Source: Desulfobacula sp.
Lineage (GTDB): Bacteria > Desulfobacterota > Desulfobacteria > Desulfobacterales > Desulfobacteraceae
Length of the DNA stretch: 64,000 bases
Direction: 5' to 3'
Assembly (NCBI RefSeq): GCF_014237455.1
Contig: NZ_JABZFL010000041.1
Location: 62,001 to 126,000, forward strand
Shown here piece by piece: positions 1,686 through 17,328 of the stretch (position 1 is the stretch's first letter; every line of letters begins with the position of its first letter). The notes beneath the pieces are model-generated. The model saw only the letters and a program-made list of their open reading frames with translations, was not told where the DNA came from and made no database searches. A program made the translations under genes and the position numbers.

Positions 1686-4600
1686 TTAAAACTCATAGCG
1701 GATCAGGAAAAACACTTCCTGTGCCATGTAACCATCTCGGAACTCGGCTGTATACTTGATCGGGAAAGATAGACCGTTTTTATAAAAAAATGTGGCCCCG
1801 GCTTCGAGCAAAAGGCTGTTTGAGTCTATATTCTGGCCATCAATTGAAAACTTGGTACCAGGTGCACCGGCAAATGCCCCGGTGATGACCTGGTCATCAA
1901 TGGCAAAATCATGCTTCCAGGCCAGGCGAAGCTCCGGCATCAGTTCAAAGTTCTCGTACGTCAGTCGTCTGGCCGCTACAGCACCTATCTGGAAAAATAA
2001 TGCCTCAGTCCGGCGATCGTCCACCCTCAGATTGAGAGCACCTGCTCCCGATTCTGTAAAACTGTCCTCACTATGAGAAAGGTAGTTCAACGCGGCGAAC
2101 GGCCCCAGCATGCAGCGATCAAAGCTGAAATTGTATCCCCCTTCCAGGTAACCGGAAAAAATGGTTCCGTCATGATCACTGGCAGCGGTGCGCTCAATGT
2201 CACCGATGGTAATGTTGCGGATGGTATCATATTCCTGGTAGCCATAGGAAAGGGAGGCATCCAGGTAATAGCGCCCGGTGAACCAGCTGCCGTATAGCGA
2301 GACCATGGAAGCATCGATGTCACCGTCACCCATGTTGTGCTCAAAATCGATATCCGCTCTTGAAAAGCCCAGGCTGATGCCGAAAAGCATATGATCATTC
2401 AAAAAACGGTCTGCCCCGAGCGTCCCGCCATAAAGCTCATAGTCATATCCGATGAAACCATCCTCACCGTCCTGGTCACCCCACTGTCCGAACCCCTGCA
2501 TCCACACGCCATATCCGGGACGGGTTTCAGCTGCGGCCGTCTTCAGGCTGGCACGCAGGCTGTGCATGCGTTGCTGAATAGTTTTAATATATTGCTGTGT
2601 GCTGCTGAGGGTAGTTCTGGTGGAGTTATTGTAAAGATCGGGGCTTAAGCTGGCAAACGCTTTGTTGAAGTCAGATTCTGACAGAGACTGAAACTCTCCT
2701 AGGATCAGCGACATGTCGCCGTTAGCATGAGGTGTGATATCATCCAGATGCTGCGCGATTGTCCTTTGCAAAGAATTGTCAGCTACGGTGGTGAAGCTCT
2801 TAGCCAAGGTTTCGACTTCCACTCGGTCAGAATAGGTGAATGCCTGAAAACTCAGCAGCGGCTTATCCTCCGGCAGCGTTTCACTGCTGAATACTCCATC
2901 AACGTCGTCGGCCAATACGACATCGTACCGGGTTCCGTTTATGAAAACGCCCGGTTCTTTGACCACATTCAGCTCCCCGTTCAATTGCGCCTTGCCGTTC
3001 ACGTTCAACTGGCCGTGACTTCCATCCCCATTCACATATGTCTTAAAGCTGGCATCATCTGCCATGGCATAATTGCTGTCTATTTGAAGGGTTCCCTGAT
3101 TGACCTCGATTCGCTGCATGGTTGGGAGACTTGTCGCAGAATAGATTCCAGCGCCCTGTTTAACCGCATTTTCAAAGGCCGTGGGAACAAAATCAATACT
3201 GCCGAGTCCGTCAAATATTAACGTATCAATTCCAGCCGCTCCTGTTACGTCGCCCACAACCAGTGGCGTGCCGGAAAGTGTCAGCCTATCGTCTCCTTCA
3301 CCCAAATCAATGTGCCCATTCGTCTCAGAATCGTTTATAAGAAAAAGCCAGTCGTTACCGCCGCCCGAGGTGATACCCACTCGTAAACTTGAAATGCCGT
3401 TTTTAATATTTGTCGCGCTGATTGTGCCTTCATTCGTGATCATATCATCCCCATCGCCTGTCTGAATCCCCATGGCACAGGTGTCTGCAAAAGAAAATCT
3501 ATATCGATGTTCATCACCCCAGGTCGAATCAACATGCAAAGCCGTCGTGGCATCTGCATCCGCAGTTACATTAATCGTGCCGTAATTTTTGACGGTGTTC
3601 CCTCCGTCTCCTGTTTGGATTCCTATTGCAGTCGCATAGGAATTGGCAATGGCCTTTCCATGGGGATCATCGGCATACGTATCGGCATAGCCATACGAAT
3701 GGGCGATTGCGGTGGCATTGACCTCTATGGTGCCGGTGTCGTAGTTGATGATCTCGTTTATACCCTGACCTGCTGAAATCCCGAGCGCCTCAGCACTGAC
3801 ACCCGGTGAACTTTCACTTCCGATGAATGCCCAGCCATAATCCTCCCCGTGGCCATATGCATAGGCATCTGCTGCAGCACTAACAGTCATATTGCCGTAA
3901 TTCCTGAGTATGTTTTGACCATTTCCAACGAGAATTCCTTCAGCCTTTGCATCTCCCCCCGCATATGCCTCAGCATGGTTTGTGGCGCCTGCTGTATTGG
4001 CATATGCCCAAGCGTCAGCATCGACGGAGGATGATATGATAATATTGTTATGATTTTCAATAATATTGACACCGTCTCCAGCTGAAATACCCGCAGCATT
4101 GGAGGTCAGCGCGGTGTCCTCCATGCCGGCGTATGCCAACGAATTCATGAGGTGCGCAGAGGGATAGTCTGATAGCGCGATACCCGTATTTACGGCAGTC
4201 ACTGTAATTGTCCCGGTGTTTGTGTTTATTATTGAATTATCTCCATTCCCTGCTTTGATCCCTGCGGCATCTGCCGAGGCATCGGTCTTTGATCTGGCAA
4301 AGGAATCGGATGGAACAGATTTTGCTAATCCGTGGGATTTCTGAATCACCTCAGATGCCACGGTAATCTGACCATTATTGACCACCGTGTTGCCGCCGTC
4401 GCCCAAAGATATACCGGCGCTGCTGCTATGGGCAATAGCTGAGGCGGTCGAATCCTCGTCTGCATAAGATTTAACGACGGTTGCAATGGGTGATTTGCCG
4501 GCACGGGCTGTGACATCAATAGTTCCTGTTTCCGAATTTGTCACCGTATTATTGTCATTTCCTGCCGCAATACCGAAGGCGTTAATTGTCATGTCCGAGG

Positions 4601-7600
4601 TTGCAATGGATTTGTTGTCTCCAATGTCTGTATCTGCTTCGGAATAACTCCATGTATCGCCACCTGAATGAACGTCAATGGTACTAAAATTGGAAATAGT
4701 ATTGCTACCGGCTCCTGCATCAATACCAAATGCATCGGCGTTCACTTCAGCTTTCATCGTGGCTTCAGGTCCACCCCACCCAATCCAAACAGTAGCTTCA
4801 CCTTCAGCCCGACCGTATGCATCCACCGATATCTCGCCGTTATTTTCAATGCTGTCGTTGCCTATCCCGCCTGAAATGCCTGTCGCAGAGGTATTTGCTA
4901 CCGATTTACTATCTGCCCCTCCACCACCAATTGTACTGACCTTTGCTTCCGCATCAGCGTATGCGTATCCGCGGGCATGTACATCGATCTTGCCAGCTAT
5001 TTCATCAACTTTTTCATTGATGATCACATCATTCCCTTCGCCGCCGTCAATACCGAAAGAGTCCACTGATACCGAGGTGCCGGCAACTCCAACCTCTAAC
5101 CCTATAAACATACCTGCATATCCTAACGACTCTCCCTCGACCATCCAGTTGACCGGATCCCCGACATCTATGTTACCTGAATTGCGAACCGTGTCATCGC
5201 CATCACCGGCTGAGATGCCTGTTGCCTGCGCCTTGGCTCCCATGCTGGAGATGGTAAATGAGAATAAACTGGCTGCAAAACTCTCGCTGTCTGCCTTGGC
5301 CAGAGGTCCGCTGGCCGGTTCAACAGACCCAATGGTCATCGATCCGGTGTTTACGATCAAGTCTTTGCCACCACCGCTGCTTATCCCATGGATGATTGCC
5401 TCAGTAAACGAGGTCGCGTTGGTCAGATAGGCAAGCCCGATGGCTCCATTGCCTGCCTCTCCTAAAGCACTGGTAGTAACGTTGATGTCACCGTGGTTTT
5501 TGATGTCGTCCTCTGCATCACCACTTTGAATTCCTGTAGCAATTGCTTTAGCCGTAACACCCGTAAGATCGACTCCGGCACTGAATCCTGCACTCACCGA
5601 GCCAGCCAGGGTATCAACTTCGGCCACTACCTTTATGACACCGTCCTTGCTGTTGGTAATCTCGTTGCTGCCGTTGCCACCATAAATACCAGTGGCGCTT
5701 GCGTCTGAATTTATTCCAGCACTTGCCAGGGTTACCCCTAAAAGCTGAAAATTCAGACCTACTACATCAGCCACTGCATCTGATGCTACATCTATGTTCC
5801 CTTCATTCAATAATGTGTCTGATCCCATACCGCCGGCAATACCGATTGCATCCGCATCGACTGTTGACACAGACTTTGCAAACAAAGCCCCACCGCCTTG
5901 TACTACATAATTTTCGGCATCTATTTTGGCGTGAGAATCTACTGTAACAGATCCGCCGGAGAGGTTGGATATTGTGTCACCTGATGCCAACTCGTCACTT
6001 CCATAGTCTCCACGTATACCAACGGCTCCTGAAAGAGCTGTATTGCTGACATCTCCGGATGCGTAACCCGAAAAATTGGCGGTTGCTCCCAAACCATCAA
6101 CAGTCGAGGTCGATTCAACATTGATGTCACCCTCGTTTTTTAAAGTATCAACGCCCAGGCCACCGTCTATGCCTACACTTTCAGAACTGGCCGTTGAAGA
6201 AGCTTCAGTTATACCGGCTCCGGCCGTAGAGATATTGATCGTGATCGTATCTGTTTTGGTTGTTGCTTCGGCCGATACTTCAACTGTTGATCGATTGGTG
6301 ACCTGATCTTCCCCGTCACCACTGTCGATACCAGCAGCAACGGCCTCCGAATTTGTTTCCACGAGTGATATTGCCGCTCCGGCGCTAACGCCCTTTATCG
6401 CAACGGCCACGTCAACGGAAACGTTGGTTGAAGATACGTCTGCCTCGGCATTTGCCCGGATAGCCGACTCACTTGTAATCTTGTCGTTTCCACTTCCGGC
6501 ATCTATTCCGGAAGCTCTGGCAGTGGCCAAAGTGCTGGTGTCAACCAATGATGCACCAAGGGCAACTCCCTTCCACGCTCCACTGACAGTGACCGCCACA
6601 GTATCACTCAAAGAGACTGCATAAGCAGAGCTGTCCAATGAATATCCGTCTTCAAGCTCCATATTTGCATTTGTGATTGTGTCATCACCACTACCGGTGT
6701 CTATACCAATAGCTGTCGCCTCGGCCTTTGTCTGAGCATCAGCATAGCTGAATCCGGCCGTAAGTCCTTCTCGGGTTCCAGTTACAGTGGCTGATACCAT
6801 AGTGGAATCGGCGTCCGGATCGCCTCCCTCTTCGTTGGCCTGGACCTTTATCAGGCCATAATTGTTAACCGTATCATCCTCATCACCTGTATCAATCCCG
6901 ATCGCGGTTGATACAGCTGTGGTGGTGCCGTCGGTAACCGAACCACCGAAGATTGCGTTCATCTCCTTGGTGAAACCGACTGCGGCCGTCACTCCTACAG
7001 ATGTACTGGTGCTTTTTGAATCCGCATTAACCTCGATCTGTCCTGTAGCTGTGTTTGTGATGCTGTCCTGCCCCTTGCCCCCCTCGATGCCTACAGCTTC
7101 TGCCTCCGCCCGTGTTTCAGCATCGATATAGGTCAATCCGGCCACCAGTCCTTGGTCAACATTCTGAAAATCGACAATAATATCCTTAGATTCTGCTTCC
7201 GGCGTAGCGGTTGCACTGAGCAGGCCGGAGTTGGTGATGCTGTCATCTCCTTCACCGCCAATGATTCCCGCTGCTTCACCTGCTGCCCGTGTCGAGGTAT
7301 CAGCTATAGCGCCACTCACACTGGCAGAGTCTTTTACGGACAACTGAACTTCAGCGACGACTTCTGTACTTGTTGAGGAAGGATCAGCGGTAACTGTCAC
7401 TATTCCGGCAGTATCGATCGTGTCGTCACCTTCACCTCCTTCAATACCCGCTGCAATAGCAGAGGCCGTAGTATCCGCCCTTGCCATCGAGACTCCAACA
7501 TTGAGCGCCCCATCAATTTTCCCCTGGACCCCTGCGGATACTGCAGTACTCGCTGCAGTGGCTGTTGCATCAGAGTTTAGTGTGCGCAAATCAGTAATCA

Positions 7601-9386
7601 AAATGGTATCGTTCCCCTCCCCACCATCTATGCCCGCGGCCACGGACTCTGATTTTATAGAAGTATCTGCAACCGAGGCCTGAAGGTCGAATTTATCGAT
7701 ATCATCGAATACTCCCTGAAGAGCAGCCGAAACAGTCACCCCCGTCGTCGTTGACGTTGCGTCAACATCGATCAGATTCCCATTATGGGTGATGTTATCG
7801 TCTCCTTCGCCCCCTTCAATCCCTGCTGACTCTGCCAAAGCAGTAACCCCCGCTCCTCCCAAGGCAAATGCCGGAGAGGGCATATCCATTACCGGTTCCA
7901 GAATAGGCAGGCTCAGATTCACACTGATATCTTCAGCAGTCGAATTGGCTTGCACTGTGATTGGGCCTTCATTGATGATGGTATCTATGCCAATCCCACC
8001 ACGGATTCCAATGGCGGAAGTCTCGGCTGTTGGGCTGGCACTGGCGAGCGATTTTCCTTGAAGGACATCAATGACAGAGCTCGGGATACCTTCGGCACCA
8101 ATTGAAACTGTAGTTCCTTCAAGAGTTGAAGTGGCCGAAACATTTATTGTACCTGTATTGGAGATAGTGTCATCTCCCCCCTCACCGCTTATCCCCACCG
8201 CAGTCGCCGTGGACAGGGTGTCCGCGCTGCCCGCACTGGTGCCCAGAAGCTCCCCCCAGAAGCCGGGACCGACAGTGAGATCAACGAAAGTGAAATTTAT
8301 GCCCACCTTGTCCACCCCGGATGTCGCAGTGGAAGTAATGGACCAGGTGTTGGTGATTTGATCTGCTCCGTCGTTGCCCTCGATTCCGGTTGCTTTCGAC
8401 TCCACCGTCAGGCCGGAAGACCCAAGACCCCAGTCTGTAATATTAAACTCAACTTTCCAAAGTTCGCTCTGCGCTGTAGCAGTGGATTCAATCGTCCCAT
8501 GGTTTTCAACGCTGTTGTTTTTCAAACCTGTTTTTATTCCAATGGCCTCGCCACTGGCTAATGCAGTTGTATCTGCGACCGACCAGTCCATCACCTCATT
8601 TCTGAAATCTGAGTTATCGGCCTTTGCTGTAGCGGTTGATTTAATCAAACCCTCGTTAGTAATGATATCGGAAGGACTAACACCATCATCTTCGCCAGGA
8701 CCGCCTATAATTCCTATTGATGTTGCTTCTGCTGTGACGCCCGCATCCATACTGGCCTTGTCCACGAGCTGCGTCGTAAATTCTCCTGCAGAAGCGTTCG
8801 CTTCTGCACTGACTGTAAGCGTATCAATGTTGGTAATCGTAAGACTCCCAACACCACTGCCTATTCCAGTTGCAGCGGCCGTGGCGCTGGCACTGACATC
8901 CACGCTGTTATCACCCGCAGCCGTAAAGACCATATCATCTGTGGTCGCAGTGGCAGTTGAAGTCACTTCAATGATCGCGGTGTTTTCCACTCCGTCCACG
9001 CCGTCTCCGGTATTGATTGCGGTTGCTCGTGAAGTGGCAGTCGATGCGGTTTCCGATACGGGCAATGCAACTGCATCAGCATTCGCGCTGACCGCACCAT
9101 TGTTTGTAATCTGGTCATCCCCAATTCCGGCATCAACCGCAGTAACATCTGCATCAGCAGTCGATTCAGATGTCTGCAAGCTATCTCCTATAATCTGAGA
9201 GCTGCCTTCAATTAAAATTGTATCATCGCCTTCATAACTGATGATACCTTCATGGATGCTTGTACTGACAATAGTATCGTCCTGTGGGGTACCGTGCAGA
9301 ATTTCTGCATAGCTGACGGGTAAGTAAAAAATAATAGAATAAAAGGAAATACACAACGACAGTAGCGAAAGACAAAACATCTTCAT
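1686..9386 (-). CDS. Giant type V autotransporter with about 35 RTX-like repeats
   Basis: A 2566-residue surface or secreted protein. I start it at 9386 because AAAGGAG lies just upstream and the next residues form a signal peptide (KMFCLSLLSLCISFYS, then SYA); an in-frame ATG at 9431 has no such support. The passenger (about 35-2285) is built of about 35 degenerate units of the form A-x-GI-x-GG-x-G-x-D-x-I-x-N-x-G-x-I-x-V followed by Ala/Thr/Ser-rich segments, typically 60-75 residues per unit. The GGxGxD core resembles RTX calcium-binding nonapeptides, while the alternating pattern predicts a beta-helix. The last about 280 residues form a 12-strand autotransporter barrel ending in aromatic Phe (RYEF). 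It is probably an adhesin or matrix protein; ligand unknown. Confidence 0.88.
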   Translation of the reverse strand: MKMFCLSLLSLCISFYSIIFYLPVSYAEILHGTPQDDTIVSTSIHEGIISYEGDDTILIEGSSQIIGDSLQTSESTADADVTAVDAGIGDDQITNNGAVSANADAVALPVSETASTATSRATAINTGDGVDGVENTAIIEVTSTATATTDDMVFTAAGDNSVDVSASATAAATGIGSGVGSLTITNIDTLTVSAEANASAGEFTTQLVDKASMDAGVTAEATSIGIIGGPGEDDGVSPSDIITNEGLIKSTATAKADNSDFRNEVMDWSVADTTALASGEAIGIKTGLKNNSVENHGTIESTATAQSELWKVEFNITDWGLGSSGLTVESKATGIEGNDGADQITNTWSITSTATSGVDKVGINFTFVDLTVGPGFWGELLGTSAGSADTLSTATAVGISGEGGDDTISNTGTINVSATSTLEGTTVSIGAEGIPSSVIDVLQGKSLASASPTAETSAIGIRGGIGIDTIINEGPITVQANSTAEDISVNLSLPILEPVMDMPSPAFALGGAGVTALAESAGIEGGEGDDNITHNGNLIDVDATSTTTGVTVSAALQGVFDDIDKFDLQASVADTSIKSESVAAGIDGGEGNDTILITDLRTLNSDATATAASTAVSAGVQGKIDGALNVGVSMARADTTASAIAAGIEGGEGDDTIDTAGIVTVTADPSSTSTEVVAEVQLSVKDSASVSGAIADTSTRAAGEAAGIIGGEGDDSITNSGLLSATATPEAESKDIIVDFQNVDQGLVAGLTYIDAETRAEAEAVGIEGGKGQDSITNTATGQIEVNADSKSTSTSVGVTAAVGFTKEMNAIFGGSVTDGTTTAVSTAIGIDTGDEDDTVNNYGLIKVQANEEGGDPDADSTMVSATVTGTREGLTAGFSYADAQTKAEATAIGIDTGSGDDTITNANMELEDGYSLDSSAYAVSLSDTVAVTVSGAWKGVALGASLVDTSTLATARASGIDAGSGNDKITSESAIRANAEADVSSTNVSVDVAVAIKGVSAGAAISLVETNSEAVAAGIDSGDGEDQVTNRSTVEVSAEATTKTDTITINISTAGAGITEASSTASSESVGIDGGLGVDTLKNEGDINVESTSTVDGLGATANFSGYASGDVSNTALSGAVGIRGDYGSDELASGDTISNLSGGSVTVDSHAKIDAENYVVQGGGALFAKSVSTVDADAIGIAGGMGSDTLLNEGNIDVASDAVADVVGLNFQLLGVTLASAGINSDASATGIYGGNGSNEITNSKDGVIKVVAEVDTLAGSVSAGFSAGVDLTGVTAKAIATGIQSGDAEDDIKNHGDINVTTSALGEAGNGAIGLAYLTNATSFTEAIIHGISSGGGKDLIVNTGSMTIGSVEPASGPLAKADSESFAASLFSFTISSMGAKAQATGISAGDGDDTVRNSGNIDVGDPVNWMVEGESLGYAGMFIGLEVGVAGTSVSVDSFGIDGGEGNDVIINEKVDEIAGKIDVHARGYAYADAEAKVSTIGGGGADSKSVANTSATGISGGIGNDSIENNGEISVDAYGRAEGEATVWIGWGGPEATMKAEVNADAFGIDAGAGSNTISNFSTIDVHSGGDTWSYSEADTDIGDNKSIATSDMTINAFGIAAGNDNNTVTNSETGTIDVTARAGKSPIATVVKSYADEDSTASAIAHSSSAGISLGDGGNTVVNNGQITVASEVIQKSHGLAKSVPSDSFARSKTDASADAAGIKAGNGDNSIINTNTGTITVTAVNTGIALSDYPSAHLMNSLAYAGMEDTALTSNAAGISAGDGVNIIENHNNIIISSSVDADAWAYANTAGATNHAEAYAGGDAKAEGILVGNGQNILRNYGNMTVSAAADAYAYGHGEDYGWAFIGSESSPGVSAEALGISAGQGINEIINYDTGTIEVNATAIAHSYGYADTYADDPHGKAIANSYATAIGIQTGDGGNTVKNYGTINVTADADATTALHVDSTWGDEHRYRFSFADTCAMGIQTGDGDDMITNEGTISATNIKNGISSLRVGITSGGGNDWLFLINDSETNGHIDLGEGDDRLTLSGTPLVVGDVTGAAGIDTLIFDGLGSIDFVPTAFENAVKQGAGIYSATSLPTMQRIEVNQGTLQIDSNYAMADDASFKTYVNGDGSHGQLNVNGKAQLNGELNVVKEPGVFINGTRYDVVLADDVDGVFSSETLPEDKPLLSFQAFTYSDRVEVETLAKSFTTVADNSLQRTIAQHLDDITPHANGDMSLILGEFQSLSESDFNKAFASLSPDLYNNSTRTTLSSTQQYIKTIQQRMHSLRASLKTAAAETRPGYGVWMQGFGQWGDQDGEDGFIGYDYELYGGTLGADRFLNDHMLFGISLGFSRADIDFEHNMGDGDIDASMVSLYGSWFTGRYYLDASLSYGYQEYDTIRNITIGDIERTAASDHDGTIFSGYLEGGYNFSFDRCMLGPFAALNYLSHSEDSFTESGAGALNLRVDDRRTEALFFQIGAVAARRLTYENFELMPELRLAWKHDFAIDDQVITGAFAGAPGTKFSIDGQNIDSNSLLLEAGATFFYKNGLSFPIKYTAEFRDGYMAQEVFFLIRYEF

Positions 9387-9615
9387 ATCGCTTTCTCCTT
9401 TATGGAAAGCCTGCTGTTTATAGAAAAGCAAAAATGCTCCGAGGCAGGGCTATAGGGCTGGAATAAAAGAAAATCATCTTGTCAAACTGCATCCGATCAA
9501 ATCACCTACAGTCCTTCTCAACGCCTTTATTTCAGTTCTAAATAGCACCGATATAATATCTTTTCAAGATCAAACCTTTTTAACCAAGCCACTTTATTTA
9601 AGCCTATTTTTGGAC

Positions 9616-12854: not shown

Positions 12855-13715
12855 TTATCCGAACAGGCTGATAATTCCAGCCCCTGTGATCATGATAATG
12901 CCGCCGGCAAAACCAAGCGTTTTGATGTTCTCTTTAAACACCAGAATGCCGATCAACATAGTGAACAATACGCCCAGCCGCCTTACCGAAGAGACATATG
13001 CCACCGGCCCAAGGCTTATGGCAGTATAGTATGATAAAACAGTTAATGTGCTGAAAAAAGCCGGCCACAGGGTCTTTTTTAATTTAAAAAAAGAAAAATT
13101 GCCCTTATCCGACCAGACAGCAAACGGAAATAAAAGCAGGGAAATCAGGCCAGTCTCAGACACCGCCCAGAACAAAGCATCGGTCTGATTCACACCGATT
13201 TTATGAAAACTTGAACTCACACCCCAGATACAGGCTACCGCCAGCATCACCATGGAACTTTTATCCTTGAAAACGCTCTTAACCGGAGATAAAAACCCAT
13301 CCCATGTTTCCATATTGAGGATATAAGATCCAAACACCACTACCAGGACGCCTGAAATACCGGTCAATGATAAATTTTCATGGACAAGTACCGGTGTTAC
13401 AAACAGCTGAACCACTGGAATGAAACACAGCATGGGAATAGTTTTTGACAAATCACCGGTTTTAATGGACCAAAGGTATAATACGGTTGCCAGGGAATCC
13501 AGAATGGCTGCAATAATCAAAATCCCTACAAACGATATTGTGACGGTATGACAATTCAAAAAAATAACATTAAGGGCAAAAATAATAAGGAACATGAAAA
13601 AATTAAGCCCCCAGCTCATAAATGCTGAAGAAAGGTCTTTCCCGGCCTTTTTTACGGCAACTTCCCTTAAGCTCAGGGTGATGGACGATATAAACGCAAG
13701 AACAAACCAGTTCAT
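12855..13715 (-). CDS. EamA/DMT-family exporter
   Basis: A 286-residue protein with about ten hydrophobic helices in two EamA repeats (about 1-135 and 150-285), typical of the drug/metabolite transporter superfamily. These export small metabolites or amino acids; the substrate cannot be predicted. Its ATG overlaps the stop codon of the upstream acetyltransferase gene (ATGA), so the two are translationally coupled. It ends 2 bp from the convergent ycaO stop, leaving no room for a separate terminator or an attC site. Confidence 0.82.
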   Translation of the reverse strand: MNWFVLAFISSITLSLREVAVKKAGKDLSSAFMSWGLNFFMFLIIFALNVIFLNCHTVTISFVGILIIAAILDSLATVLYLWSIKTGDLSKTIPMLCFIPVVQLFVTPVLVHENLSLTGISGVLVVVFGSYILNMETWDGFLSPVKSVFKDKSSMVMLAVACIWGVSSSFHKIGVNQTDALFWAVSETGLISLLLFPFAVWSDKGNFSFFKLKKTLWPAFFSTLTVLSYYTAISLGPVAYVSSVRRLGVLFTMLIGILVFKENIKTLGFAGGIIMITGAGIISLFG

Positions 13716-14176
13716 TCCATTTTATTATCATTCATTTTTATGAAAGGAAACCTTTGATCTGGTTCCAGACGTTTGCCAAAACTCACGACATCGTCAATTT
13801 TAAACCCGATGGTTTTGTAGAATTCGATTACCCCGGCATTTGTACGTCGGACCTGAAGATTGATTTTGGGGCAGCCCAGTGCCCGAAGCCCGGCTTCTGC
13901 TTTATCCATCATCTGCCTGGCAATCCCTGTACGCTGATCCTGTGGACGGACAGCAAGATAGTTGATCCAGCCACGATGACCGTCGTATCCGGCCATGACG
14001 GTGGCAATGATATGGTCCCCGGAACAGCCGACAAGGAAAAGGTTTGACTGCACCTTGAGTTTTCGTTGTATGTCACGATGCGGATTGTTCCAGGAAACAA
14101 CAAGACCGCAGTCACTCCACAATTGAACAACGGCTTTTTCATCTGACAGCACAAATGGCCTGATGTTTAGTTTCAT
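13712..14176 (-). CDS. ypeA: YpeA-type GNAT N-acetyltransferase
   Basis: A 154-residue acetyl-CoA-dependent acetyltransferase. It shows the YpeA family signature GYDGHRG followed by YLAVRPQDQRTGIARQMM, the acetyl-CoA pyrophosphate loop, and a FYKTIGF segment near the end. I start it at 14176 (MKLNIRPF) after TAGGAG; the longer frame to 14245 would read through the attC-like site. It is co-translated with the EamA exporter by a 4-bp overlap. The start codon lies 14 bp after the core of the attC-like site, which is where a cassette gene begins. Substrate unknown. Confidence 0.85.
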   Translation of the reverse strand: MKLNIRPFVLSDEKAVVQLWSDCGLVVSWNNPHRDIQRKLKVQSNLFLVGCSGDHIIATVMAGYDGHRGWINYLAVRPQDQRTGIARQMMDKAEAGLRALGCPKINLQVRRTNAGVIEFYKTIGFKIDDVVSFGKRLEPDQRFPFIKMNDNKME

Positions 14177-14190
14177 GATATACTCACAAC

Positions 14191-14284
14191 TCCTAACGGT
14201 TGAGTTCAGGGACCGCCGACCCACGGAAGGGAATGGGGACGGCAAAGCCGCTCCCCGCGGTCCGCTGCAATGAAAGGGTTAAAT
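14191..14284 (-). repeat. attC-like integron recombination site after mrr
   Basis: Read on the minus strand, this 94-bp imperfect palindrome begins with the inverse core ATTTAAC (14284-14278), overlapping the mrr stop codon, and ends with the core GTTAGGA (14197-14191). Inside are paired arms (GCAGCGGACCGC with GGCGGTCCCTG) and the typical right-hand stretch CTGAACTCAACC just before the core. Orientation and position directly after the gene match an integron cassette attC. Only the last core base departs from the consensus GTTRRRY. Confidence 0.7.
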
Positions 14285-15121
14285 GTCGGCAAACCAAGAC
14301 TTATTGATTTGGACCTTTTCAACTATTTCGATTGCGACACCTAAAGTCAATTCTTTTAGCTTCTGGGCAAATTCATTACCATCGACCAAATCTATTGGAG
14401 GTGCGCCATCTCTATGAGCTTCAGCTTTAGCACCTCTTGTAAAAGAGGAAGTTGTTATAAAAAGGCCTTTATCTGCGCGCCCTATCATTGCACCTCGAAA
14501 GTCTCTGATAGCAGATGATGACACTGGTTTGGAATATCTTTTACATTGAAAGACAACATGGAAGGAAAGAACTCCTCCCATTTTTATAACACCAACACCA
14601 TCGATGCCCCCATCTCCTGATTTTCCGGTAACTTCAACATTGGAAAAACCCAACTCACGAAGAAGTCTCTGGCTTAACCTTTCAAAAGCATCCGGTTCAA
14701 CCGACTTCAAAACGGACACTAACTCTTCTTCCCAGCCCAATTCTTCGACAGAATTATCAATTTTTTCCGATACAATTTTTTCAATAACAGTTTTTGAATC
14801 ATCAAGATTCTTTACAAAGCGATTAACCGTTGCTTTTTTGACAATTTCAATAGATCGTCCTTTTGAAGTCAGCGCCCAAACAGCCCTTGCAGAATTTTCA
14901 ATGAGCCCAAATCGTTTGAGATAGTTTTTCGCCCATGCTGTCCTATAAGTTAATTTGCTTCTATTCCCTCGATGAATGTCTTCAACTTCTTCATCAGAAA
15001 GTTTCAGGATTTCAGCTATCTTTTCTTCAATTTCCGAATTTGTACCAGACCCACCTAACTGATGTAGAGCTTTCAGCAATGGGTTGTAAAGGTCATCATA
15101 TTTGTATTTAAAAATAGACAT
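14279..15121 (-). CDS. mrr: Mrr-type restriction endonuclease (type IV), probable integron cassette
   Basis: A 280-residue protein with an N-terminal Mrr winged-helix domain (about 1-105, NPLLKALHQLGG) and a C-terminal Mrr catalytic domain (about 130-265). The PD-(D/E)xK-like active site is visible as GDGGIDG followed by FQCKRY, the variant with Gln in place of Glu. Mrr enzymes cut methylated or otherwise modified foreign DNA. The gene sits between a 7-bp core site upstream (15146-15152) and an attC-like site that overlaps its stop codon, so it appears to be a mobile cassette. No methyltransferase partner is present, as expected for type IV systems. Confidence 0.9.
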   Translation of the reverse strand: MSIFKYKYDDLYNPLLKALHQLGGSGTNSEIEEKIAEILKLSDEEVEDIHRGNRSKLTYRTAWAKNYLKRFGLIENSARAVWALTSKGRSIEIVKKATVNRFVKNLDDSKTVIEKIVSEKIDNSVEELGWEEELVSVLKSVEPDAFERLSQRLLRELGFSNVEVTGKSGDGGIDGVGVIKMGGVLSFHVVFQCKRYSKPVSSSAIRDFRGAMIGRADKGLFITTSSFTRGAKAEAHRDGAPPIDLVDGNEFAQKLKELTLGVAIEIVEKVQINKSWFADI

Positions 15122-15145
15122 TTTGAAATTCCTTTAGCTTTAGAC

Positions 15146-15152
15146 ATTTAAC
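15146..15152 (-). repeat. Integron core site at the 5' boundary of the mrr cassette
   Basis: On the minus strand this reads GTTAAAT, a perfect GTTRRRY core. It is the exact reverse complement of the inverse core ATTTAAC at the other end of the mrr cassette. That complementarity is expected if both derive from one circular cassette. It would be the attI (or preceding attC) junction. Confidence 0.6.
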
Positions 15153-15308
15153 GGCGTTAATAAATGGAAAACTTTCCATGATATTGGTTGTAATAGATAC
15201 TATAATTTTCCACTTATTTTCATAATAATGACAAAAATATGGAGAATTATATGGCGCTATAAAATTTTACTTATTTTTTCCATTTATCATGCTATTATCA
15301 TATTCGGC
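15153..15308. other. Putative attI / integron platform region
   Basis: This AT-rich stretch lies between the mrr cassette core site and the integrase remnant, where attI and the cassette promoter would be. It contains a 16-bp inverted repeat, ATGGAAA-AC-TTTCCAT (15164-15179). I found no convincing promoter on the minus strand, only weak -10-like boxes. An open frame from 15228 continues into the integrase remnant, but I take the ATG at 15309 as the original start. Confidence 0.4.
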
Positions 15309-15446
15309 ATGGAAAACAAATCAAAATTTCGTTCCAATCCAAAGCTCAAATCGATGGATCAGAACCGGGAGATTCTGCAATCTCAGATTGGGCCGGGAAT
15401 GGAGATATCACGTCATGAAGTCGAGTTTAAAGGTCTGAATTTGTAA
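15309..15446 (+). pseudogene. Remnant of an integron integrase (IntI) N-terminus
   Basis: The first 23 residues from ATG 15309 (MENKSKF, then NPKLKSMDQNREIL) resemble the N-terminal arm-binding helix of bacterial integron integrases, which commonly begin with a (P/N)KLxxMDQVREVL segment. The normal sequel (an HHY/RTE motif and the catalytic R-H-R-Y residues) is missing and the frame stops after 45 codons. The part after the match (GPGMEISRHEVEF) weakly recalls the GxGxRISE segment of the catalytic domain, as if a large internal deletion occurred. It is divergent from the mrr cassette, as intI is from its array. Recognition rests on a short stretch. Confidence 0.5.
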
Positions 15447-15459
15447 AGACAGAGGATAT

Positions 15460-17328
15460 ATGATGCTTAAAAAAACACCCTCATGGAAAAAAAAGGTTGT
15501 CTCTCCGGGCGATGTATTAAAAAAAATTGAACCGGGAATGAACATCTTCATCGGCACGGGTGCTGCAGAACCCCGAACCCTTGTGAACTGCCTCATGCAT
15601 ACCAAAGGATACGGGCTGCAGGATCTGACCCTGATCCAGCTTGTCAGTTTCGGAGATGCCATTTCATATAAGGCATTACAATCTAAAAGATACCGCCTTA
15701 AAACCTTTTTCTCCGGGTGGGTATCGGCTGAAGCCATCTCAGCCGGCCAGGTGGATCTGGTCCCCTCAAGATTTTCAGCCATCCCCTTGCTCATGAAGGA
15801 AGGACAGATTCCCATTGATATTGCCTTTGTTCAGATAACACCTCCCAACCGGGCCGGCTATTGCAGTCTGGGTGTAGGAGTTGATGTGGCCCGAAGGGCA
15901 ATGGCACAGGCTGATCTTGTGGTGGGTGAAGTCAACCATGAAATCCCTTTTACTTTTGGAGATACCTTTGTTCCTTTTGATGCATTTGACATGATCATTG
16001 AATCCATTGATCCTCCGTTTTATTTCCCCCGGTTCCCGGTGGACCCTGTCTTTGACAAGCTGGCTGCCACTGTTGCATCGGTCATTGAGGACGGCAGCTG
16101 CCTTGCCTTTACGTTTGGCCCGATTTTCGAGGCCCTGCCCAAACACCTTGCAGATAAAAAAGATCTGGGAATTCATACCCCGTTTTTTACAGATGCATTA
16201 ATGGAACTGGTTAAAAGTGGTGCGGTAAGCAACCGGAAAAAAGGCCTTTTCAAGGGAAGGTCTTTAACAGCTTATGCCCTTGGCAGCAGAGAGCTGATGC
16301 AGTTTCTTGACAAAAACCCCATTGTTGAATTTCAAAGCATTGACAAAGTCTTCAACCCCATGGAGATTGGACAGAATCATCGATTTGTACTGATTATCCC
16401 GGCAAGACGCGTTGATCTTTCAGGCCGTGTCACCCTGCATAACAGCAAAGGAAATGTTACGGCAGGTCCCGGTCAGATGGCAGACTTTTTTAATGGCGCT
16501 GAAATCTCCCAGGGTGGCTACACCATTATAGCCCTTCCCAGCCAAAATCGTCAGGGAACTCCCAATATCCGCCTCTCAGTAGAAGACTCTCCTGACTTAC
16601 TAAGCCTTCCCGAATCCATTGATCTTGTGGCAACAGAACAGGGAATTGCCCATTTACGGGGGAAAACCTTAAGAGAACGAGCCCAGGCCCTTATTGAAAT
16701 TGCCCACCCTGAGGACCGGCCCGAACTGGTTGAAGGGGCAAAAAAAATAAATATCCTGTATAAGGATCAAATCTTTCTAGCAGACAGCACTCGTTTTTAT
16801 CCTGCCGATATTGAGACCCGGCATATGTTCAAAAATAATATTAATATCCGTTTCAGGGCCATTAAACCGTCTGATGAAGACCAGATGAGACGATTATTTT
16901 ATAGATTTTCCGATAAGGCCATCTACTACCGGTATTTCAGCCCCATAAAAACCATGCCCCATGAAAAAACGCAGGAATACGTAAATGTTGACTATCGGGA
17001 TGTACTCTCCATTGTTGCCCTTGTAGGTGAACCGGGACAACAGACCATTATTGCCGAAGCCAGATTTGCCAAGCATCAAAACAAACCTCTTGTGGACATT
17101 GCATTTGTCGTTGATGAGGTATATCAGGGATACGGGATTGCCACCTACCTGTATCAGATGCTGGCAAGATTGGCGAAAGACAGGGGTGCACAGGGCATGA
17201 CCGCTGATGTTCTCGCATCAAACCGGGCCATGCTCAAAGTATTTGAAAAAGGCGATTTCCCGGTTCAGGCCAAAGTGGAACAAGGTGTTTATGCATTAAC
17301 CATTGATTTAACCACCCCAAAAAACTAG
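15460..17328 (+). CDS. Acetyl-CoA hydrolase/transferase fused to a GNAT domain
   Basis: A 622-residue fusion. Residues about 10-200 and 210-440 are the N- and C-terminal halves of the acetyl-CoA hydrolase/CoA-transferase family; the catalytic Glu lies in VATEQGIAHLRGKTLRERA (about residue 388). Residues about 465-620 form a GNAT acetyltransferase with the acetyl-CoA loop VYQGYGIATYLYQML. The fusion occurs in anaerobic deltaproteobacteria. It could interconvert acyl-CoA and free acid, with the GNAT part acetylating a protein or metabolite, but the combined role is not established. AGAGGA lies before the paired ATGs; the second ATG at 15463 is equally possible. Confidence 0.88.
   Translation: MMLKKTPSWKKKVVSPGDVLKKIEPGMNIFIGTGAAEPRTLVNCLMHTKGYGLQDLTLIQLVSFGDAISYKALQSKRYRLKTFFSGWVSAEAISAGQVDLVPSRFSAIPLLMKEGQIPIDIAFVQITPPNRAGYCSLGVGVDVARRAMAQADLVVGEVNHEIPFTFGDTFVPFDAFDMIIESIDPPFYFPRFPVDPVFDKLAATVASVIEDGSCLAFTFGPIFEALPKHLADKKDLGIHTPFFTDALMELVKSGAVSNRKKGLFKGRSLTAYALGSRELMQFLDKNPIVEFQSIDKVFNPMEIGQNHRFVLIIPARRVDLSGRVTLHNSKGNVTAGPGQMADFFNGAEISQGGYTIIALPSQNRQGTPNIRLSVEDSPDLLSLPESIDLVATEQGIAHLRGKTLRERAQALIEIAHPEDRPELVEGAKKINILYKDQIFLADSTRFYPADIETRHMFKNNINIRFRAIKPSDEDQMRRLFYRFSDKAIYYRYFSPIKTMPHEKTQEYVNVDYRDVLSIVALVGEPGQQTIIAEARFAKHQNKPLVDIAFVVDEVYQGYGIATYLYQMLARLAKDRGAQGMTADVLASNRAMLKVFEKGDFPVQAKVEQGVYALTIDLTTPKN

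Follow-up and report, generated by a model that had tools for sequence, protein, structure and literature searches.

An mrr-type restriction gene carried as a single-gene integron cassette at a chromosomal attI with a decayed integrase gene in Desulfobacula

The mrr gene in the window, by which we mean the whole 64,000-nucleotide stretch of a Desulfobacula sp. contig that was analysed, is with a probability of about 95% a genuine single-gene integron cassette, sitting first at the attI of a small chromosomal integron whose integrase gene (intI) has decayed. A sequence-only reading had proposed such a cassette from a palindrome behind mrr and a short motif in front of it, and the proposal was borne out by an attC match of the palindrome, an attI upstream and an intact integrase in the same genome. 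Beyond that proposal, the analysis indicates that the upstream side is attI together with an intI remnant and that the GNAT acetyltransferase gene downstream is probably a second, truncated cassette. The coordinates of these features are given in Table 1.

Table 1. Features of the mrr cassette and its chromosomal surroundings (positions in the window).
Feature	Position	Strand	Description
EamA transporter	12855..13715	-	right-hand chromosomal flank; adjoins the acetyl-CoA hydrolase gene in G017 and G019
GNAT acetyltransferase	13712..14176	-	PF00583 5e-15; probable last cassette, 3' end and attC lost
attC of the mrr cassette	14191..14284	-	R'' ATTTAAC 14284-14278; R' GTTAGGA 14197-14191; covariance model R1, hairpin
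mrr gene cassette	14197..15151	-	955 bp, TTAAAT through the G of the attC core; basis: complementary ends GTTAAAT/ATTTAAC
mrr	14279..15121	-	280-aa Mrr-type type IV restriction endonuclease; PF04471 1.9e-30, PF14338 6e-21, PADLOC mREase_IV 1e-29
intI-attI spacer and attI	15146..15308	-	recombination point G|TT at 15152/15151; attI model R3
intI remnant	15309..15446	+	decayed 5' end of an integron integrase gene, MENKSKFRSNPKLKSMDQNREIL...; IntI homology only over about the first 24 codons
acetyl-CoA hydrolase/transferase-GNAT fusion	15460..17328	+	left-hand chromosomal flank

In a profile search both domains of the mrr product were complete, an Mrr_N winged helix and an Mrr_cat PD-(D/E)xK domain with the motif GDGGID...FQCKR. 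The protein is accordingly predicted, with both domains intact-looking, to be an Mrr-type (type IV, modification-dependent) restriction endonuclease, and its role would most likely be defence against phage or other foreign DNA.

An attC-like site beginning with ATTTAAC over the mrr stop codon, with an arm layout and a lead into the core typical of attC, had been described from the letters alone, and each of these features was recovered. The TAA stop codon (14281-14279) lies within the R'' box, the R''-L''-L'-R' layout is present and recognised by an attC covariance model, and CTGAACTCAACC (14209-14198, minus strand) runs into the GTTAGGA box. Folded as had been suggested, the minus strand of 14284-14191 forms an imperfect hairpin of -19.7 kcal/mol (z -2.5; 2 of 200 shuffles were equally good). 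A search of Rfam at its gathering thresholds returned nothing for attC; since Rfam is without an attC family, we built covariance models of our own, which also replaced a regex-plus-fold attC finder that was too loose. As a DNA query the palindrome had homologs in 35 of the 116 genomes searched (its own genome counted), many of them in spaced arrays. Model R1 was made from 12 sites of relatives, with no site from the source genome and no clinical site; Thiodictyon sites, which MAFFT had misaligned, were left out of the alignment. The sole R1 match in the 64 kb is at 14287-14190 on the minus strand (84.2 bits, E 1.1e-22), and the same model recognises class 1 attC sites (OXA-4-type, aadA2, dfrA12, aac(6')-Ib and dfrB10; best E 6e-8 to 1.5e-4). 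Model R2, made from eight clinical attC sites, ranks the mrr attC first in the 64-kb window with exact boundaries, weakly (12.4 bits, E 0.59, filters off), and gives no match in the window with default filters. We relied on the direction from R1 to class 1 because the clinical attC sites were few and diverse. Judged by layout, fold and model matches, the palindrome behind mrr is an attC site.

The palindrome is also GC-rich, lies behind a stop codon and has similar elements scattered through the genus, as might be expected of an ordinary terminator or a REP-like repeat behind a normal horizontally acquired mrr gene. This explanation is, however, refuted by the cross-matches of the element family to class 1 attC. 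In addition, the palindrome has no T-run, its boundary is exact at G|TT, its family forms arrays in two congeners (G003 and G022) and its ends pair with attI, and we give a terminator or repeat a negligible chance.

On the other side of mrr, a decayed intI start (MENKSKFRSNPKLKSMDQ..), a spacer and attI together occupy 15446-15146 and match the intact intI-attI platforms of congeners. The intI stub MENKSKFRSNPKLKSMDQNREIL... aligns with the N-terminus of intact intI, which reads MENKPKFRPNPKFKLMDQVREV... in G003:C657, and also with that in G006:C34; Pfam alone found nothing in the 45-aa remnant ORF (15309-15446). A joined-flank search aimed at an empty site showed that the flank upstream of mrr is repeated in the genus, and most of the attI copies stop at G|TT, ending ...TTAACACTG|TT before unrelated DNA. 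This element also stands directly before a complete intI, overlapping its first codons, in G003:C657 and G008:C1, so we read it as intI start, spacer and attI. Model R3, built from 12 congener copies with the window copy excluded, matches 15216-15150 on the minus strand (64.9 bits, E 4e-19), and R3 combined with TIGR02249 adds G001:C1, G006:C34 and G014:C150 as places where an intact intI lies beside the attI element. This homology identifies the DNA upstream of mrr as a bona fide attI accompanied by an intI remnant, so that mrr occupies the first cassette position at a genuine attI and not a random site.

Compared with a complete integron, the locus thus has an attI homologous to that of intact integrons (R3; G003, G008, G001, G006 and G014) and, in the place of an intact intI beside it, a remnant of about 24 codons only. 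The window region contains one attC and no intact integron integrase nearby, which is the arrangement of a CALIN or single attC. The lack of an intact integrase next to the cassette and the single attC at the locus would also suit a lone cassette at a non-integron secondary (attG-like) site in the chromosome. Such an insertion is nevertheless very unlikely, being refuted by the attI homology, and was dropped as a candidate, since the upstream flank is a dispersed attI/intI element, common to intact platforms, with homologs ending at G|TT.

The motif GTTAAAT in front of mrr had been noted as the exact reverse complement of ATTTAAC, as expected if both ends came from one circular cassette. The match is confirmed at all seven positions (15152-15146, minus strand). 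This copy at the attI side is the only R' that belongs to the cassette itself; GTTAGGA, the outer R' of the mrr attC, is part of the next segment, that of GNAT, as expected of an integrated cassette. R'' ATTTAAC and this next R' pair imperfectly, which counts against the cassette reading. Over eight attI-attC pairs (mrr and seven others), 30 of the 32 outer bases, namely the four after GTT compared with R'', are complementary, against a mean of 16.2/32 in shuffled pairs (p=4e-4). The set, chosen after a first pass, consists of attI sites of the genus with a first attC within about 1.3 kb, and leaves out two pairs more than 2 kb apart, one duplicate site and one misaligned weak match. The complementarity rule thus holds over these eight pairs of the genus, and both ends of the mrr cassette fit an origin from one circle. 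At a junction in G017:C18 (L200, about 1564) the core is GAT instead of GTT, and the ends are still complementary. In the mechanism that we propose, an integron integrase would have recombined the attC of a circular mrr cassette with attI at G|TT. Six bases of the cassette itself (TTAAAT) would thereby have come to lie at the attI side, and the folded attC at the mrr stop.

Behind mrr, the C-terminus of GNAT continues into chromosomal DNA. Below 13751 the window is homologous to DNA upstream of EamA in G019, which has no integron there, and this homology covers the last codons of GNAT. Relatives of GNAT in G042, G002 and G056 stop about where the window protein departs from the family, reading FIKMNDNKME, and a relative in G003:C68 is flanked by attC on both sides. 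This break in homology and the cassette-borne relative suggest that GNAT is probably the last cassette, truncated, which would have lost its attC and become fused to chromosomal DNA before EamA. Elsewhere on the minus strand of the window (1686-9431) lies a very large repetitive autotransporter-like ORF of 2581 aa with many GDGDDTITN-type internal repeats.

Across the genus, 18 loci carry an ortholog of the acetyl-CoA hydrolase gene that forms the left-hand flank. The intI remnant is present at five of them, the one in the window included, and a sixth is interrupted by the end of its contig. EamA comes directly after this gene in G017 and G019, where intI, attI, mrr and GNAT are all missing from the interval, and mrr was absent from the 25 congeners searched. 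The gene and its flanks are thus not one conserved block, and the insertion is non-orthologous. The same intI truncation is present at the orthologous locus in G006, G012, G024 and G025. What lies behind it is mrr in the window, in G006 a small zinc-ribbon-like ORF with a group II intron-like reverse transcriptase after it (read from sequence), and another ORF in G012. The joint to attI falls at the same base in the source genome (G000) and in G006, and their first cassettes differ. Taken together, the shared truncation, the differing cassettes and the same-base joint suggest that an integrase encoded elsewhere acted in trans after intI had decayed, and this integrase would probably have catalysed the last exchange at the locus. 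Alternatively, mrr may have been captured while intI was intact, the differences among congeners being deletions from a longer ancestral array with no integrase in trans; decayed integrons (CALIN) are common (PMC9024848), and the contigs here are short. Such deletions are harder to reconcile with the different first cassettes that G000 and G006 carry behind one truncation at one attI joining base, and we regard this account as plausible if somewhat improbable. Action in trans is the account that we prefer.

An intact integron integrase is encoded in the source genome on contig C96 (TIGR02249, 461 bits against a 265-bit cut-off), and an array of ORFs with palindromes leads away from its intI. 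This IntI shares about 55% identity with the integrases of the mrr-locus attI type, and its attI looks different; the integrase lineage cognate to the mrr-locus attI is not intact in the source genome. A second integrase above the TIGR02249 cut-off lies on C5, not near any attC found. The search for other attC sites that had been proposed at the outset gave five more in this genome, so that R1 finds six in all (the window, two on C69 and one each on C11, C1 and C87), and the genus has attC in 17 of 26 genomes, several in arrays. There are 32 attI-like sites in the genus and five stand beside an intact intI, a contrast that contig ends inflate. Many dispersed attI sites without an integrase might still be served in trans, with cassettes like mrr exchanged at several chromosomal places, which we put forward tentatively and consider rather unlikely. 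If true, cassettes would be exchanged at several places in the chromosome at once and not in one array. The attI sites that lack intI raise a testable question of cassette capture in trans.

On C69 (L184, 4100-4660 and 208-840) the two attC sites also accompany recognisable genes. One directly follows a 186-aa ORF matching PADLOC REase_II (2.7e-21) and the other follows a YoeB/YefM toxin-antitoxin pair; by these matches, the attC-flanked genes resemble further defence-type cassettes of this genome. On C96 the complete integron (L014, 10622-12983) opens with a cassette gene for an HNH endonuclease, followed by genes for a SAM methyltransferase and a GNAT protein; behind the cassette genes comes a group II intron-like sequence, GGGTAGCCGGGGGTT...CCCTGCATGCGGG (13040-13130). 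In G006 a putative reverse transcriptase follows the cassette genes (L115, 7660-9100). Class C introns target attC, and the intron-like sequences after cassette genes recall them.

Relatives of the window Mrr in family- and order-mates are 40-55% identical to it. In a wider search of about 85,000 species genomes, its closest clade (support 99/96) comprised proteins of an uncultured Kangiella, Pseudomaricurvus sp. HS19, Vreelandella olivaria and a Phormidesmis priestleyi MAG, for which contamination is possible. No attC was seen at the Kangiella gene. The Pseudomaricurvus, Vreelandella and Phormidesmis genes have a common leader, TTAGATTTCACAAGG, present in the MAG in the degenerate form GAGATTTCACAAGG, and these three cassette-borne relatives have an R'' ATCTAAC with the stop codon inside. 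Two of them have GTTAGAT/ATCTAAC ends and one has a degenerate 5' end; the attC marked by R1 lies at the mrr stop in two cases and is a later one in the remaining case. Pseudomaricurvus carries an intact intI (427 bits) in divergent orientation near the start of the same array on the same contig, so a complete integron carries at least one other Mrr of the clade as a cassette. These relationships place the window's cassette with other cassette-borne Mrr enzymes, in a clade represented in gammaproteobacteria and in a single cyanobacterial MAG. Plasmids held no close relative of the window Mrr (best 49%), and viral contigs held one at 51%. Three Mrr cassettes (L256 3829-3907, L259 after 1085 and L260 3829-3899) have near-identical genes and leaders and quite different attC bodies, as if the attC had been swapped behind a constant R'' ATCTAAC.

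Antiphage systems, with compact type IV restriction genes among them, are described as being stored in chromosomal integrons, both in Vibrio and in wider surveys (Darracq et al. 2025 Science, as described in PMC12409362; PMC12444791), and antiphage cassettes in sedentary chromosomal integrons are credited to Getz et al. 2025 and Kieffer et al. 2025 (as cited in PMC12444791). Restriction functions had earlier been listed among common cassette functions (PMC8618304). The sequence-only reading held that a restriction enzyme in a single-gene cassette would show chromosomal integrons carrying defence genes; the mrr case fits this, but the general point is not new, since restriction genes in integrons have already been reported (as described in PMC12409362). 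A literature search, with most subscription papers outside its reach, found no description of an mrr cassette. The present case is a well-documented single-gene restriction-enzyme cassette outside clinical and Vibrio integrons, and it is in line with the recent idea of chromosomal integrons as reservoirs of anti-phage defences. Other attC-flanked or array-borne defence-like genes in the genome (the REase_II-like ORF, the HNH endonuclease and YoeB/YefM) support chromosomal integrons as defence stores. IntegronFinder 2.0 recognises a single attC without an integrase, and CALIN are common (PMC9024848).

The mrr locus resembles sedentary chromosomal integrons in its attI, intI, attC-bearing cassettes and defence genes, compact type IV restriction enzymes included. 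It differs from them in belonging to a different genus with small, scattered platforms, in its decayed local intI and in having mrr as the only local cassette with an attC. With CALIN and single attC sites it shares an attC without an intact adjacent integrase, whereas it retains an attI and an intI stub that the definition of CALIN does not require. E. coli Mrr belongs to the type IV modification-dependent restriction endonuclease family, and the window Mrr has the same order of Mrr_N and Mrr_cat domains; unlike E. coli Mrr, it is carried as an integron cassette, with its stop codon inside R''.
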